The notes beneath the pieces are model-generated. The model was not told where the DNA came from, ran no database searches, and saw nothing but the letters and a program-made list of their open reading frames with translations. A stretch of DNA of 64,000 nt from assembly GCF_041821065.1 (NCBI RefSeq), contig NZ_JBGUAX010000004.1, positions 434,001 to 498,000 on the forward strand. The letters are read 5' to 3'. Origin of the DNA: Egicoccus sp. AB-alg2. Its GTDB lineage: Bacteria > Actinomycetota > Nitriliruptoria > Nitriliruptorales > Nitriliruptoraceae. Below, piece after piece: positions 6,381 through 12,624 of the stretch; the first letter of the stretch is position 1; each line of letters begins with the position of its first letter. The position numbers were made by a program, and so were the translations under genes.

Positions 6381-6499
6381 TCCAGACCAATCCGCTAGGC
6401 GGAACAAGGTTCGTCGTACAGCGGATCTTCAGCAACCGCGTGGGAGCGCGGTCGCGCACATCCGAGGGAGCCGGTCGGGACGCGACGAGGGAGAGGTCG

Positions 6500-7687
6500 A
6501 TGAGGATTCGCAGCAGGACACGGCAGTTCGCCGTCGTCGTCGCGAGCGTGTTCGCCCTGGTGGCGTGCGCGTCCGACGGTGGCGCGGGCGGGGACGCGGT
6601 GGCTGCAGGAGGCGACGAGACAGAGGAGGGCGAGGCCGGCGGCGATCAGACGGACGTGCTGGCCGCGATCGACGAGATCGCCGAGCGCGTGGAGTCGGGC
6701 GAGCTCGCCTACGACCCGGCGGCTGGCGAGGACGAGGCCATCGAGGCCCTGCGTGAGGCCATCCCACAGCCGGATGGCTACCCGGCCCGGCCGGTCGAGG
6801 TGCTGATCGGCTTCGGCGAGGGTGGTGGGTCCGACAACTACACCCGCAACGTCGGACGCGACGCCGAGCGCATCATGGGGCAGCGGCTGGTCTACAACAA
6901 CATGCCCGGTGCCTCGGGTGAGGTCGCGCTCGGTCACATGCTCACGCAGGCGGCCGACGGCTACACGATCGCCAGCGCGATCACCAACCAGGTCATCAAC
7001 AACGCGCTCGACTACCAGCCCTACAGCTTCGTCGACGACGTCGAGTTCATCATCCGCCAGCAGGGTCCGACCGAGATCTACTGGGTCGCGGCCGACAACG
7101 AGTGGGAGACGTTCGAGGAGATGCTGGACTACGCGGCCGACAACCCCGGCCAGGTCCGTGTGTCCGGTTCGGGCATCGGCGGCGACGACGAGTTCCGCCT
7201 GCTCGCCCTGGGCGCCGAGATCGACAGCGAGTTCGGCTTCGTGCCCTTCGACGGCGTCGGCGGGCGCATCTCCGCACTGCTCTCGGGCGACATCGACGTG
7301 CTGCACGAGACGGCCGGCACGGTGATGGACCTGTACGAGGACGGTCAGATCCGGCCGCTGGCCTACGGCGGCGACATCGTCTTCGAGGACATCGACCCGG
7401 ACGTCCCGTCGGTGGCCGAGCTCGGCTACCCGGTCCCGACCGGCCGGTGGCGCGGCATGGTCGCGCCCGGAGGCGTCGACCAGCAGATCGTCGACTACCT
7501 CCACAACGTCTTCTACGCGGCGGCGCAACTGCCCGCCTACAAGGAGTACGAGGTCGAGTTCCTCCAGCACGTCGCGGGTGGCTACCTCAGCGGCGAGGAG
7601 TTCGAGGAGGAGTCGCGACGGGAGCTCGAGGAGATCCGCCAGCTCGCGGAGCAGTTCGGCTACACGGCCGAGGACCTCGAGGAGTGA
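6500..7687 (+). CDS. tripartite tricarboxylate transporter substrate-binding lipoprotein (TctC family)
   Basis: A 395-residue periplasmic/extracytoplasmic binding protein. The ATG at 6500 has GGGAGAGG before it and gives a lipoprotein signal ending FALVAC, with Cys as the lipidated residue. The longer frame from 6440 lacks a signal at its start. After the lipobox there is an unusually long acidic, Gly-rich linker of about 70 residues. The Bug/TctC core then begins at YPARPVEVLIGFGEGGGSDNYTRNV. It delivers a carboxylate to the TctAB channel encoded next. It is the first gene of a three-gene operon that faces the HAD/nitronate monooxygenase operon. Confidence 0.88.
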   Translation: MRIRSRTRQFAVVVASVFALVACASDGGAGGDAVAAGGDETEEGEAGGDQTDVLAAIDEIAERVESGELAYDPAAGEDEAIEALREAIPQPDGYPARPVEVLIGFGEGGGSDNYTRNVGRDAERIMGQRLVYNNMPGASGEVALGHMLTQAADGYTIASAITNQVINNALDYQPYSFVDDVEFIIRQQGPTEIYWVAADNEWETFEEMLDYAADNPGQVRVSGSGIGGDDEFRLLALGAEIDSEFGFVPFDGVGGRISALLSGDIDVLHETAGTVMDLYEDGQIRPLAYGGDIVFEDIDPDVPSVAELGYPVPTGRWRGMVAPGGVDQQIVDYLHNVFYAAAQLPAYKEYEVEFLQHVAGGYLSGEEFEEESRRELEEIRQLAEQFGYTAEDLEE

Positions 7688-7774
7688 CCCTACGGACCGC
7701 CCGGCGTCGCTGAGCGGCATCCGGTCGTCGCGCCGCGGGCGCGGCGGCCGGATGCCCCGGCAGGGAGAGCACTG

Positions 7775-8443
7775 GTGAGCGAGCAGCGAACCACGTCGTC
7801 CAGGTCCACCGCGGGCCGCACCGGCCGCCGGCCGGTGCCGGGCCGGGCCGTGCAGGAGGTGGTCGTCGCCGCCGTGCTCCTGCTCGGCTTCGTCTACCTG
7901 CGCCTCACCCTCGACCAGCACGTGCAGGGCCGTCGCGGTGCCGCGTACCTGGACCCGGACTTCTGGCCGGCCTGGTTGCTGAACGCGGGGATCCTCTTCT
8001 GCCTGCTCTACCTGGTCACATCGCTACTGCGGCTGCGGGCGCGACGCGTCGGCGGGGCCAGCGGTGATCCGCACACGTCGTCGGGCGACGTCGCGGGGAC
8101 CGCTCGCGAGATGACCGCAGCAGGCGATGCCGCCACGAGTACGACGGCCACGTCGGAACCGCCGGAGGCCAGCGACGCGCAACGCAACCCCAAGGCGCTC
8201 GCCGGCGGTGTGGCGCTGATCTTCGGCTTCGTCTACCTCATGCCGGTACTGGGGTTCCTGCCGGTCGCCGTGCTGTTCTGCGTGGCGTTCCTGCTCTTCG
8301 TCGGTGAACGCCGCTGGTACGTCGTCACCGCCGTGCCGGTCGTGCTGATGGCGGCGATCCTCTACGTCTTCACCCGCTTGTTGGTGGTGCCACTGCCGCG
8401 AGGAAGGGGCGTCTTCCTCGAGATGAGCACCTTCCTCTACTGA
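7775..8443 (+). CDS. tripartite tricarboxylate transporter small membrane subunit (TctB family)
   Basis: A 222-residue protein with four hydrophobic segments in a 2+2 arrangement. They are separated by a charged, Ser/Thr-rich cytoplasmic loop of about 70 residues (roughly residues 85-140) that is longer than usual for TctB. The N-terminal segment VVVAAVLLLGFVYLRLTLDQH and the FGFVYLMPVLGFLPVAVLFCVAFLLF segment match the family pattern. It starts with GTG at 7775 after CAGGGAGAG. Its position between TctC and TctA supports the call more strongly than its own weakly conserved sequence. Confidence 0.82.
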   Translation: MSEQRTTSSRSTAGRTGRRPVPGRAVQEVVVAAVLLLGFVYLRLTLDQHVQGRRGAAYLDPDFWPAWLLNAGILFCLLYLVTSLLRLRARRVGGASGDPHTSSGDVAGTAREMTAAGDAATSTTATSEPPEASDAQRNPKALAGGVALIFGFVYLMPVLGFLPVAVLFCVAFLLFVGERRWYVVTAVPVVLMAAILYVFTRLLVVPLPRGRGVFLEMSTFLY

Positions 8444-8475
8444 GCGGCGACGCTCGCCGTCGAAAGCGCTGAGCC

Positions 8476-9996
8476 ATGGAGTTCTTCACCGGCCTCGCCT
8501 CGGTCCTGCAGCCCAATCACCTGATCCTGCTGGTCATCGGCGTCGTGATCGGCATGATGTTCGGCACGATCCCCGGCCTGTCCGGCATCACCGCCGTCGC
8601 GCTGCTGGTCCCGTTCAGCTACGTGCTGGGGGCCGAGGCCGCCATCATCATGATGATCGGCGTGTACCTCGCGGCCAGCTGTGCGGGCGCGCTCGCGGCC
8701 ATCCTGTTCAACATGCCCGGTGACGTCATGGGTGCCGCGACCGCCAGGGACGGCTATCCGCTGACGGTCAACGGCGAAGCGGGCCGCGCGATCTCCATGA
8801 GCATCATGGCGTCGGCCGTCGGCGGCTTCATCGGCACGGTGCTGCTGGTGCTGATCGCGCCGCAGTTCCTGCGCATCGCCCTGCAGTTCGGCCCGCCCGA
8901 GTTCTTCGCGCTCGCGCTGCTCGGCATGACCTCGGTCGCCAGCCTGGCCAGCGGCTCGGTCCTGAAGGCGCTGATCGCCGGCACGTTCGGTCTCCTGCTG
9001 GCCACCGTCGGCCTCGATCCCGTGTCGGGTGCGGTGCGCTTCACGTTCGGGGTGCAGCAACTGCAGGGGGGCGTCGACTTCATCCCCGCCATCATCGGCT
9101 TCTTCGCGGTCGCGGAGATCCTGCACTCGCTGTATCGAGGTACCGGCACGGGCGGCTACAGCAAGGAGGACGTACAGAAGGTCAACCGGTTCGCCTTCCC
9201 GCCGATGGCGGACATCAAGGCGACCAAGTACACGATGCTGCGCTCGGCGTTCCTGGGCAACTTCGTCGGCATGCTCCCCGGGGCGGGCTCGACCGTGGCC
9301 GCCTTCCTCGGCTACGGCACCGAGGTCCAGATGTCGAAGAAGGCGGAGAAGTTCGGCAAGGGCGAGATCAAGGGTGTGGTCGCGCCCGAGGCGGCCAACA
9401 ACGCGGCGGCGGCCGGCTCCATGGTGCCGCTGCTGACCCTCGGTATCCCGGGGGGCGCGGTCACCGCGATCATGCTGGGGGTGCTGATCCTCAATGGCCT
9501 GCGTCCCGGCCCGCTGCTGTTCCGTGACGCACCGGAGATCACCTACTCCGTCTTCGGGGCGATGATGGTCGCCAGCATCGTCGTCCTCATCGTCGGGTTG
9601 CTGCTCGTGCGGGTCCTGCTCCGCCTGCTCACGATCCCGTTCGAGATCTTCAGCACCATGGTCCTGGTCTTCGCCGTCGTCGGCACCTTCGCGATCTACA
9701 ACCGCCCCGTGGACCTGTGGGTGATGTTCGTCTGCGGCATCCTCGGGTTCTTCGCCAAGCAGTACGAGTTCCCGATCGCCGCGCTCATCCTCGGTCTCGT
9801 GCTGGGCACCATCGCGGAGACCGGGCTCGTGAACGGCGCCAACGTCACCCGCGGGAGCTGGAACCTGTTCTTCACCCGTCCCTTCACGATGGTGACGCTG
9901 GCGGTGGCGGTGCTGCTGCTCCTGCTGCCGATCGTGTTCGCCGTCCAGCGCAAGCGCAAGGAGGCCTCGGAGCCCGAGGTGGAGCCGGTCGGGTGA
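8476..9996 (+). CDS. tripartite tricarboxylate transporter large permease (TctA family)
   Basis: A 506-residue membrane protein of typical TctA length with about 11-12 helices. Family hallmarks are GTIPGLSGITAVALLVPFSY near the N-terminus, the APEAANNAAAAGSMVPLLTLGIPGGAVTAIMLG block in the middle (the most conserved TctA signature), and GILGFFAKQYEFPIAALILGLVLG near the end. It forms the secondary-transport channel with TctB and takes substrate from TctC. It ends the operon; a small hairpin follows 26 bp after the stop. Confidence 0.92.
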   Translation: MEFFTGLASVLQPNHLILLVIGVVIGMMFGTIPGLSGITAVALLVPFSYVLGAEAAIIMMIGVYLAASCAGALAAILFNMPGDVMGAATARDGYPLTVNGEAGRAISMSIMASAVGGFIGTVLLVLIAPQFLRIALQFGPPEFFALALLGMTSVASLASGSVLKALIAGTFGLLLATVGLDPVSGAVRFTFGVQQLQGGVDFIPAIIGFFAVAEILHSLYRGTGTGGYSKEDVQKVNRFAFPPMADIKATKYTMLRSAFLGNFVGMLPGAGSTVAAFLGYGTEVQMSKKAEKFGKGEIKGVVAPEAANNAAAAGSMVPLLTLGIPGGAVTAIMLGVLILNGLRPGPLLFRDAPEITYSVFGAMMVASIVVLIVGLLLVRVLLRLLTIPFEIFSTMVLVFAVVGTFAIYNRPVDLWVMFVCGILGFFAKQYEFPIAALILGLVLGTIAETGLVNGANVTRGSWNLFFTRPFTMVTLAVAVLLLLLPIVFAVQRKRKEASEPEVEPVG

Positions 9997-10040: not shown

Positions 10041-10123
10041 GTTGCGTCTGCCGCGCCGATGCGGGACCATCTGCGACGTGCGTCCGCCACGGGCGCACGT
10101 CGACCTCCCAGGAGCGGTAGGTA

Positions 10124-10195
10124 GTGCGGGAGACCATCACCCGGGTCGGGCGCCTCGGCGTCCTGTTCGTGGTGGTCGTCGTTCTCGTTACGTAG
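10124..10195 (+). CDS. valine-rich leader peptide upstream of ilvBN
   Basis: A 23-codon frame starts with GTG at 10124, with AGGAG nine bases upstream, and ends with TAG at 10193-10195. Its C-terminal half reads LGVLFVVVVVLVT, with five consecutive valine codons (GTG GTG GTC GTC GTT) followed by Leu and Val. It lies about 110 bp before ilvB and is followed at once by two stable hairpins. This is the layout of ribosome-mediated attenuation of branched-chain amino acid operons, in which shortage of charged tRNA-Val or tRNA-Leu stalls the leader ribosome. The peptide is too short to have appeared in routine gene calls. Confidence 0.8.
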   Translation: MRETITRVGRLGVLFVVVVVLVT

Positions 10196-10242
10196 CGCGT
10201 ACTCGGCTCCGAGTACGCGCGAACCTCCCGGCCCGGGAGGTT
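10195..10242 (+). promoter_or_regulatory. ilvBN attenuator hairpins
   Basis: Hairpin 1 pairs GCGCGTACTCGG (10195-10206) with CCGAGTACGCGC (10209-10220), and its first base is the last base of the leader stop codon. Hairpin 2 is AACCTCCCGG (10222-10231) and CCGGGAGGTT (10233-10242), followed by CTTGCG. Hairpin 2 is the likely terminator, although its T-tract is poor. The bases CGGGAG at 10127-10132, inside the leader frame, could pair with CTCCCG at 10225-10230 as a competing structure. The exact switching order cannot be settled by eye. Confidence 0.7.
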
Positions 10243-10306
10243 CTTGCGTAGGAGGGGCCGCGACGCCGGGCGACCCGGCGGCTGGGCCAACGCAGGAGAC
10301 AAACGC

Positions 10307-12085
10307 ATGTCGGGTGGGAAGCACGAGGGCACGGCGTCCGCCGAACGGGTCACGGGCGCACAGGCCGTCATCAAGAGCCTCGAGGCGCTCGGCGTCGACG
10401 TCGTCTTCGGCTATCCCGGTGGCGCCATCATGCCGGCCTACGACCCGCTGATCGAGGCCGACCTCACGCACGTGCTGGTGCGGCACGAGCAGGGCGCCGT
10501 GCACATGGCCGAGGGGTATGCGCAGGCGACCGGTGAGGTCGGCGTCTGCATCGTCACCTCGGGGCCGGCGGCGACCAACCTCGTCACGGGCCTCGCGGAC
10601 GCGCACATGGACTCGATCCCGGTGCTGGCCATCACCGGCCAGGTGGCGCGCAGCGCGATCGGCTCCGACGCCTTCCAGGAGGCGGACGTGACCGGCATCA
10701 CGATGCCGATCACGAAGCACAACGAGCTGGTGCAGAGCCCCGAGCGGATCGCGTCGGCGATCAAGGAGGCGTACCACGTCGCGCGCTCCGGGCGTCCCGG
10801 GCCGGTGCTGGTCGACATCCCCAAGGACGTGCTCAACGCGACGTTCACCTGGTCGTGGCCGGAGCGGGTGGACCTGCCCGGTTACCGGCCCACGGTCCGG
10901 GGCCACGGCAAGATGGTGCGCGAGGCGCTGCAGCTGATCGCCGCGGCCGAGCGTCCCGTGATCTATGCCGGCGGCGGGCTCGTGCGCGCCGGCGCGGGTG
11001 ACGAGCTCTACGAGTTCGCGACCCGGCTCGGCCTGCCGGTCGTGACCACGCTGATGGCGCGCGGCGTCTTCCCGGACACGCACGAGCTGGCCGTCGGGAT
11101 GCCGGGCATGCACGGGCACTACGCCGCCGTGAAGGCGTTCCAGGAGGCCGACCTGCTCGTCACCCTCGGTGCCCGCTTCGACGACCGCGTCACCGGCGAC
11201 CTCGACGCCTTCGCGCCGCACGCCAAGGTCATCCACGTCGACGTGGACCCGGCCGAGATCGGCAAGAACCGGGTGGTCGACGTCCCGATCGTCGGCGACG
11301 TCAAGGTGGTGCTCGGGCAGCTGCTCAAGGTGCTGGACGACCGGGACGGCGACGCCGCCTTCACGCCGGACTGCGCCGGCTGGCGCACCCACCTCACCGC
11401 CCTCAAGGACGACCACCCGCTGCGCTTCGAGCAGCCGGCCACCGGCGTGCTCAAGCCCCAGACCGCCGTGCGCGCCATCTACGACACGTGGGGAGACGAC
11501 GCGGTGTACGTGGCCGGCGTCGGTCAGCACCAGATGTGGGCCGCGCAGCACATCCCCTACACGCGCGGGCGGCAGTGGATCAACTCCGGCGGGCTCGGGA
11601 CGATGGGGTTCGCGGTCCCGGCCGCCATCGGCGCCAAGGTCGGGGTCGGGCCCGACACGCCGGTCGTGGCGGTCGACGGTGACGGCTGTTTCCAGATGAC
11701 GTTCCAGGAGCTGGCCACCGCCGTGCAGCACGACATCCCCGTCGTCTTCTGCGTGATCAACAACGGCTACCTCGGCATGGTCCGCCAGTGGCAGCACCTG
11801 TTCTACGACGACCGGCTCTCCCAGGTGGCGCTCCCGCAGGACTGCCCGGACCTGATGAAGATCGCCGACGCGTACGGCATCCCCGGCTTCCGGGTCCAGT
11901 CGGTCGACGACCTCGACACGGTGCTGGCCAAGGCGCGCGAGATCACCGACCAGCCCGTGTTGGTCGAGTTCCGGGTCGACCCCGACGAGATGGTCTTCCC
12001 GATGGTCCCCAGCGGGGCCAGCAACGACGACATCCTGGAGTCCGCCGAGGAGTGGCGGGCCCGCCTCGCCGAGACCGGCCAGTAG
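10307..12085 (+). CDS. ilvB: acetolactate synthase large (catalytic) subunit
   Basis: A 592-residue ThDP enzyme that condenses pyruvate with pyruvate or 2-ketobutyrate, the first common step of valine/leucine and isoleucine synthesis. The N-terminal PYR domain has GYPGGAIMPAYD and the catalytic Glu in VRHEQGAVHMAEGYA. The C-terminal ThDP motif is GDGCFQMTFQELATAV...VINN. SGPAATNLVTGLADAHMDSIPVLAITGQV is typical of anabolic, FAD-containing AHAS. The ATG at 10307 has AGGAG eight bases upstream; the frame is open to 10244, but that extension covers the attenuator region. The regulatory subunit gene follows 14 bp later. Confidence 0.96.
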   Translation: MSGGKHEGTASAERVTGAQAVIKSLEALGVDVVFGYPGGAIMPAYDPLIEADLTHVLVRHEQGAVHMAEGYAQATGEVGVCIVTSGPAATNLVTGLADAHMDSIPVLAITGQVARSAIGSDAFQEADVTGITMPITKHNELVQSPERIASAIKEAYHVARSGRPGPVLVDIPKDVLNATFTWSWPERVDLPGYRPTVRGHGKMVREALQLIAAAERPVIYAGGGLVRAGAGDELYEFATRLGLPVVTTLMARGVFPDTHELAVGMPGMHGHYAAVKAFQEADLLVTLGARFDDRVTGDLDAFAPHAKVIHVDVDPAEIGKNRVVDVPIVGDVKVVLGQLLKVLDDRDGDAAFTPDCAGWRTHLTALKDDHPLRFEQPATGVLKPQTAVRAIYDTWGDDAVYVAGVGQHQMWAAQHIPYTRGRQWINSGGLGTMGFAVPAAIGAKVGVGPDTPVVAVDGDGCFQMTFQELATAVQHDIPVVFCVINNGYLGMVRQWQHLFYDDRLSQVALPQDCPDLMKIADAYGIPGFRVQSVDDLDTVLAKAREITDQPVLVEFRVDPDEMVFPMVPSGASNDDILESAEEWRARLAETGQ

Positions 12086-12099
12086 AGGGAGCCGCACCG

Positions 12100-12624
12100 A
12101 TGCACCGCCACACCCTGTCCGTTCTGGTCGAGAACAAGCCCGGCGTGCTCACCCGCATCGCCGGCATGTTCGCCCGGCGCAACTACAACATCCACTCGCT
12201 GGCGGTCGGCCCGACCGACGACCCGCGGGTGTCGCGCCTGACGCTGGTCGTCGGCACCGAGGCGGTCCAGCTCGAGCAGATCGTCAAGCAGCTCAACAAG
12301 CTCGTCCACGTCCTCAAGATCGTCGAACTGGCCGAGGACGAGTCCGTCCAGCGCGAGCTGCAGCTGGTCAAGGTGGCCGCCGACGGCGCCACGCGCAGCC
12401 AGATCATCGAGCTCGCCGACGTGTTCCGCGCCAAGATCGTCGACGTCGACCACGACTCGATCACGATCGAGGCGGCCGGCAACCCCGGCAAGCTCGAGGC
12501 CATGGTCGAGCTGCTCGAGCCCTACGGCATCCGGGAGATGGTCCGCTCGGGAACCATCGCGCTGGCCCGTGGCGCCAAGTCCATCACGGACGGGTCCAAG
12601 GTCCGCATGCAGCGGGTGGTGTGA
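12100..12624 (+). CDS. ilvN: acetolactate synthase small (regulatory) subunit
   Basis: A 174-residue protein with an N-terminal ACT domain (HTLSVLVENKPGVLTRIAGMF, RRNYNIHSLAVGPTDD) and the C-terminal ALS_ss_C domain (RELQLVKVAADGATRSQIIELADVFRAKIVDV, EPYGIREMVRSGTIALARG). It binds IlvB, raises its activity and confers valine feedback inhibition. The ATG at 12100 follows GAGGGAG. An open frame extending upstream overlaps ilvB and is not coding. No ilvC follows, although ilvBNC is a common order; the next gene is on the other strand. Confidence 0.96.
   Translation: MHRHTLSVLVENKPGVLTRIAGMFARRNYNIHSLAVGPTDDPRVSRLTLVVGTEAVQLEQIVKQLNKLVHVLKIVELAEDESVQRELQLVKVAADGATRSQIIELADVFRAKIVDVDHDSITIEAAGNPGKLEAMVELLEPYGIREMVRSGTIALARGAKSITDGSKVRMQRVV

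Follow-up and report, generated by a model that had tools for sequence, protein, structure and literature searches.

Attenuators of the E. coli trp and ilv type couple a translated leader to a choice among RNA segments that can pair as 1:2, 2:3 or 3:4. The locus described here, which lies before the acetolactate synthase genes ilvBN of Egicoccus sp. AB-alg2, is predicted to share both the translated leader and the three-way segment logic. However, its equivalent of the 3:4 pairing is a helix between segments 3 and 5 (3:5) that encloses the second of two hairpins, P1 and P2, and no U-run follows.

Leader attenuators rich in branched-chain amino acid (BCAA) codons are already known before ilvB. 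A 2005 report placed predicted leader peptides and terminators ahead of ilvB in Corynebacterium, Mycobacterium and Streptomyces, and its available text also tells of leader codon changes in Streptomyces coelicolor that reportedly had no effect on regulation, which counts against the reading presented here (PMC1262725). The leaders in that text resemble the present one in that a short frame with an Ile, Val or Leu run precedes ilvB beside a terminator-like hairpin; they differ in the poly-U after their terminators, whereas here P2 lacks a U-run and is accompanied by a family-specific 3:5 pairing. According to the accessible portion of a study on M. tuberculosis, the ilvB1 leader gives rise to a terminated RNA of about 120 nt, changing LVVI to AAAA abolishes induction, and the logic of the ilvB1NC attenuator is backed by reporters (PMC13236596). 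That attenuator likewise has a BCAA upstream open reading frame (uORF), a hairpin that becomes masked once a ribosome reaches the stop codon, and then a terminator. Unlike it, with its U-tract and LVVI control codons, the present leader has mostly Val codons and sets P1 against an extended P2. The Corynebacterium ilvB-II motif, for which the excerpted source gives reporter evidence, also combines a BCAA-rich uORF with two stems, P1 and P2, before ilvB, but its antiterminator forms between the P1 loop and an arm of P2, whereas here the partner of the P1 loop lies after P2 (PMC10272879). The U-less P2 and the 3:5 extension are what differs in the family of the window (f1), and our literature search found no report of this f1 element.

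The window, that is, the whole stretch of 64,000 nucleotides that was analyzed, contains the following features of the locus:

10042 to 10070, plus strand: predicted promoter, TTGCGT (10042-10047), a 17-nt spacer and GACCAT (10065-10070), a layout shared with relatives
10110 to 10114, plus strand: Shine-Dalgarno (SD) sequence AGGAG of the leader frame, seen in the sequence, with an SD-like purine run before the leader start in relatives
10114 to 10141, plus strand: segment 1, the leader start region, which can pair with segment 2 as judged from matched versus swapped duplexes
10124 to 10195, plus strand: leader peptide frame of 23 codons with a GTG start and a TAG stop, from sequence and family conservation
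10175 to 10206, plus strand: segment 2, comprising the last codons, the TAG (29 of 29 f1 regions) and the 5' arm of P1, on the same evidence as segment 1
10195 to 10220, plus strand: hairpin P1, its first base being the final base of the TAG; 29 of 29 regions, 4 of 11 pairs changed on both sides
about 10204 to 10220, plus strand: segment 3, the loop and 3' arm of P1, and so part of P1
10221 to 10243, plus strand: hairpin P2, terminator-like, 10 bp, without a U-run; 29 of 29 regions, 2 of 10 pairs changed on both sides
10244 to 10263, plus strand: segment 5, TTGCGTAGGAGGGGCCGCGA, which pairs with segment 3 and extends P2 (matched versus swapped z −4.09)
10307 to 12085, plus strand: ilvB, acetolactate synthase large subunit (NCBIfam NF005860, above cutoff)
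12100 to 12624, plus strand: ilvN, acetolactate synthase small subunit, read from the sequence by position and length only

A same-strand gene upstream of the leader has its end at 9996. Three same-strand frames at 6440-9996 presumably encode a tripartite tricarboxylate transporter, which their binding protein and their small and large membrane proteins resemble; the large membrane-protein frame of this cluster had no match in NCBIfam. A scan for E. coli-type promoters upstream of the leader found none. The −35/−10 layout listed above is present in all four members of the genus and in 22 of 28 f1 leaders, against 0.06 expected in mononucleotide shuffles, a somewhat flattering contrast because the pattern was drawn up after viewing the same sequences. 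In several f1 leaders the promoter takes the form TTGACC-17-CACTAT. Given this layout upstream, the leader is probably transcribed, with a predicted start near 10077. The initial annotation had named transcripts starting downstream of 10195 as evidence that would speak against attenuation; as far as the DNA can tell, this objection fails, the predicted promoter lying upstream. With a promoter-like pair upstream and ilvB downstream, the element would form part of the leader transcribed ahead of the regulated operon.

A search located ilvB in 174 of 199 genomes, including 30 of the 35 from f1. The f1 upstream set comprises 29 regions, namely the window and 28 fetched stretches; the five f1 genomes without an ilvB match were left out, as was G017, in which the match starts at the contig end. 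The window's frame translates as (V/M)RETITRVGRLGVLFVVVVVLVT (10124-10195), and its codons 16-20, GTG GTG GTC GTC GTT, form a Val run that is followed by Leu-Val-Thr-stop. The 23-codon frame, the AGGAG and the five consecutive Val codons followed by Leu-Val that were described initially are thus confirmed in the sequence. Conservation of the frame in relatives, which had been named as a check, also holds: a leader frame whose start codon follows an SD-like purine run is present in 28 of 29 f1 regions, and in the 29th (G025) the frame is cut by the contig end, yet the leader tail is visible. The f1 leaders often open with GTG CTG CGG, their tails are runs of Val, Leu and Ile (for example VLVVVP, VLVVVT and VVVLVT), and the stop is TAG in every one of the 29 regions.

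Across 27 f1 leaders, the last nine codons hold a mean of 6.1 Ile, Leu or Val codons in the leader frame versus 0.8 and 1.1 in the other two frames, a richness that is partly there by construction because leaders were initially chosen by a filter of at least five such residues in seven. As a check on this filter, all 27 leaders chosen by it end in frame at a TAG fused to P1; the frame of G007 was added by hand. Clustered codons for the pathway products in a translatable leader, as expected of an attenuator, are therefore found in 28 of 29 f1 regions. A codon-run pattern search of the genome returned no match, the pattern not fitting the leader frame. In 14 of 29 f1 regions the leader ends on a Pro codon; the window has Thr there (10190-10195). 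A C-terminal Pro could slow release, but these bases might also take part in pairing to the leader start.

P1 is a perfect 12-bp inverted repeat (10195-10206 and 10209-10220) that folds as 11 bp with a 4-nt loop. Its first base is the last base of the TAG, in agreement with the earlier description of a leader that ends exactly at the base of a 12-bp hairpin. The second hairpin, described as perfect and of 10 bp, does have a 10-bp stem, but its longest-repeat version (10222-10231 and 10233-10242) leaves a loop of 1 nt. Because that version cannot form, the true P2 stem is the register with a 3-nt loop seen in the fold, 10221-10230 and 10234-10243. The region 10090-10260 has a folding z of −3.88, with 1 of 200 shuffles as good. 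P1 and P2 are both present, abutting with zero gap, in 29 of 29 f1 regions. In the alignment of these sequences 97.4% of the P1 and P2 cells are paired, and changes on both sides of a pair occur in 27 cells versus 8.0 in shuffles, which indicates covariation. Furthermore, the leader frame, its stop and the two hairpins keep a fixed arrangement throughout 14 genera, and the element remains associated with ilvB.

No terminator was found by a scan at the window leader. A run of at least four T follows P2 in 2 of 28 f1 hairpins, although the tail in f1 is still T-enriched, with a mean of 4.9 of 10 bases. By the usual pattern of a hairpin and then a U-run, P2 would not qualify as an intrinsic terminator in f1. 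At the place of P2, a T-run of at least four follows 9 of 13 hairpins in the sister family f5, 9 of 13 among other families and 0 of 5 in members of f2 and f3; the hairpin finder behind these counts missed 1 of 29 in f1, 2 of 15 in f5, all three in f4 and 16 of 29 elsewhere.

A covariance model was built from the 29 f1 sequences. It matches 33 of 35 f1 genomes at E 1.8e-10 or better, four of them outside the model, and the two f1 genomes that lack a match (G030 and G034) also lack an ilvB match. In the phylum, 61 of 296 genomes match at E 0.01, 11 of these 61 being in f1, and nine of the non-f1 matches fall within 50 nt of an ilvB match by coordinates. A separate comparison drew on 80 ilvB loci from named genomes, with at most 61% identity and none from the class of the window. 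Seven were left out for short upstream DNA. Among the 73 examined, which include non-actinobacterial loci whose hairpins are perhaps unrelated, ilvB is preceded by a T-run terminator in 41, of which 32 also show a hairpin of at least 7 pairs that abuts the terminator. By these counts and the model matches, the arrangement of P1 and P2 is widespread in Actinomycetota. All 29 f1 regions have the arrangement expected of an actinobacterial ilvB leader element of this kind, with a predicted P1 over the leader end and an abutting P2 before ilvB. An Rfam search gave no match at gathering score, its best matches being far below cutoff and chance-like. The best model match outside f1 (G144:C2:334329-334400, E 1.7e-11) lies about 7 kb from the ilvB match of that genome, and the hairpin pair may also stand away from ilvB.

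The pairing that sets f1 apart is 3:5. Its duplex energy is −17.0 kcal/mol within genomes versus −14.9 kcal/mol when partners are swapped, with 0 of 20,000 permutations as good in f1. With one genome per genus the z of 3:5 is −4.09, near those of P1 (−4.22) and P2 (−4.58), while the control pairings 1:5 and 1:3 showed no coevolution signal in the same matched versus swapped comparison in f1. Sliding windows restrict this signal to the ~20 nt that follow P2: it is strongest immediately downstream of P2 and absent at offsets of +15 and more. Support is milder for the outer three pairs, which are only 67% paired when followed pair by pair in a MAFFT alignment, perhaps because loops of differing length misalign. 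Small sets from f5 (11 loci, p 0.31) and from f2 and f3 together (5 loci, p 0.89) gave no sign of a similar pairing. Judged by this coevolution, 3:5 is a family-specific helix that would exclude P1, seen in f1 only among the families tested.

Duplexes between segments 1 and 2 also favor matched over swapped partners (−27.6 versus −25.8 kcal/mol; z −2.93 and p 0.005 with one genome per genus). The 1:2 duplex is weaker in the window itself, at −20.5 kcal/mol, and segment 1 with either half of segment 2 alone is not significant (p 0.25 and 0.20). The comparisons thus point to mutually exclusive conserved RNA structures, P1 and 3:5, which both covary, with weaker support for 1:2.

The initial annotation had suggested a different antiterminator, in which CGGGAG at 10127-10132 pairs with P2. 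In the window these bases are indeed complementary to CTCCCG at 10225-10230, but at least six complementary bases were found in 1 of 28 leaders, the window's own. Over all 28 leaders, the leader start and the 5' arm of P2 share a mean of 3.9 complementary bases versus 3.6 in shuffles, and the candidate was rejected. Other leader segments showed no excess of complementarity to either P2 arm, except for the 5' UTR with the 3' arm of P2, where 9 of 28 leaders pass p<0.1 and about 3 are expected; we treat this as a lead only. Where the RNA is predicted to begin (10074-10139), an imitation of P1 and P2 was also observed, consisting of a hairpin (10074-10086 and 10090-10102) and then ACCTCCCAGG, which is complementary to the 3' arm of P2. 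The covariance model scores this imitation at E 9e-4.

We favor, with a probability of roughly 60%, a ribosome-sensing attenuator that makes ilvBN expression dependent on charged Val-tRNA (with Leu and Ile) through a choice between P1 and a P2 extended by 3:5. The leader frame, P1, P2 and 3:5 are backed by sequence and covariation, and 1:2 less firmly. We infer from their layout that a ribosome on the leader would set the pairing partner of segment 3. When Val is short, the ribosome would stall in the Val run and leave segment 2 free, so that P1 forms and holds segment 3, presumably the permissive state. When Val is ample, the ribosome at the TAG would cover the 5' arm of P1, and the freed segment 3 could pair with segment 5 and extend P2 downward, presumably the repressive state. 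If the leader is not translated, 1:2 could pair, and in some relatives segment 3 would thereby also be freed. Repression would then mean that transcription ends early, at the U-poor P2 or shortly beyond it.

These states were modeled by folding only the RNA left free by the ribosome. With the ribosome stalled at Val, 21 of 28 genomes favor P1 over the extension (in the window, 10.9 versus 0.1 pairs), while in the other 7 of 28 the extension already wins, which counts against the model. A ribosome placed on the stop codon blocks P1, and segments 3 and 5 then pair with each other (10.9 pairs in the window), although this is weak evidence because a free G+C-rich strand pairs with almost anything. 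P2 is paired in nearly all folded states, and therefore nothing in P1 prevents P2; together with the missing T-run, this speaks against the favored reading. Since the two hairpins also do not overlap, the alternatives are P1 and an extended P2. Folding with a ribosome at the Val run, which had been proposed as a check, thus favors P1 in most genomes including the window, but leaves P2 largely unaffected by the state of the ribosome. The original proposal of ribosome-mediated attenuation survives in part: a translatable and conserved BCAA leader with hairpins precedes ilvBN and has a predicted promoter upstream, but neither the named antiterminator nor a simple choice of P1 or P2 is supported, and P2 lacks a U-run.

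RNA polymerase makes segment 5 only once P2 is complete, and any decision that depends on this segment therefore has to fall later than P2. Stopping strictly at P2 would leave segment 5 unused, which counts against the favored reading; either a U-less stop takes place beyond P2 or 3:5 has another role. We advance a more specific proposal tentatively and at less than even odds. Namely, an ordinary leader attenuator may have been rewired in f1, with a terminator that lost its U-run, a decision taken after the polymerase passes P2, a 3:5-extended P2 that excludes P1, and a U-less stop signal or its equivalent.

The locus could instead be an ordinary actinobacterial ilvB attenuator, in which P2, even with a poor U-tract, still works as the intrinsic terminator, and 3:5 would be a relic or add minor stability. 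The position of P2 directly after P1, where other families have T-run terminators, and the T-enrichment of its tail (mean 4.9 of 10 bases) are in line with this. We nevertheless consider it unlikely, since 3:5 covaries as strongly as P1 and P2 and is confined, among the families tested, to the one in which the U-run was lost, and since no conserved antiterminator overlaps P2. The missing U-run would also suit control of ilvB translation, with a switch that blocks or exposes either the ribosome-binding site of ilvB or a standby site within segment 5. That segment is made later than P2 and is rich in purines (AGGAGGGG in the window). However, the distance from P2 to the start codon varies from 35 to 118 nt and AGGAGG is not kept across f1. 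Furthermore, predicted access to the ribosome-binding site in the Val-stalled state is lower in 15 of 28 and higher in 1. This change is in the wrong direction for translational repression, which ruled against control by site access and makes translation control improbable.

A U-poor P2 would also fit Rho-dependent attenuation, in which the end of leader translation would expose RNA to Rho and the states of P1 and P2 would modulate Rho loading. Rho-linked termination has been proposed for other actinobacterial leaders, namely those of cys operons, in the available text of PMC1262725. We give this explanation slightly less credence still, as stable hairpins take up nearly all of the RNA just past the stop and no conserved C-rich unpaired stretch is visible by eye. 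The end of a same-strand gene at 9996 might finally suggest that the frame and hairpins are unrelated leftovers, such as a terminator of that gene plus a chance Val run, but their linkage with the stop across 14 genera and their association with ilvB contradict this, and we regard it as barely plausible.

A Val-sensing attenuator that alternates between P1 and an extended P2 would extend the ilvB leader attenuators to one more actinobacterial lineage. It would also represent a natural experiment, as one class holds families with and without a U-run terminator at homologous elements. Such homologous elements allow asking whether U-less hairpins stop actinobacterial RNA polymerase.
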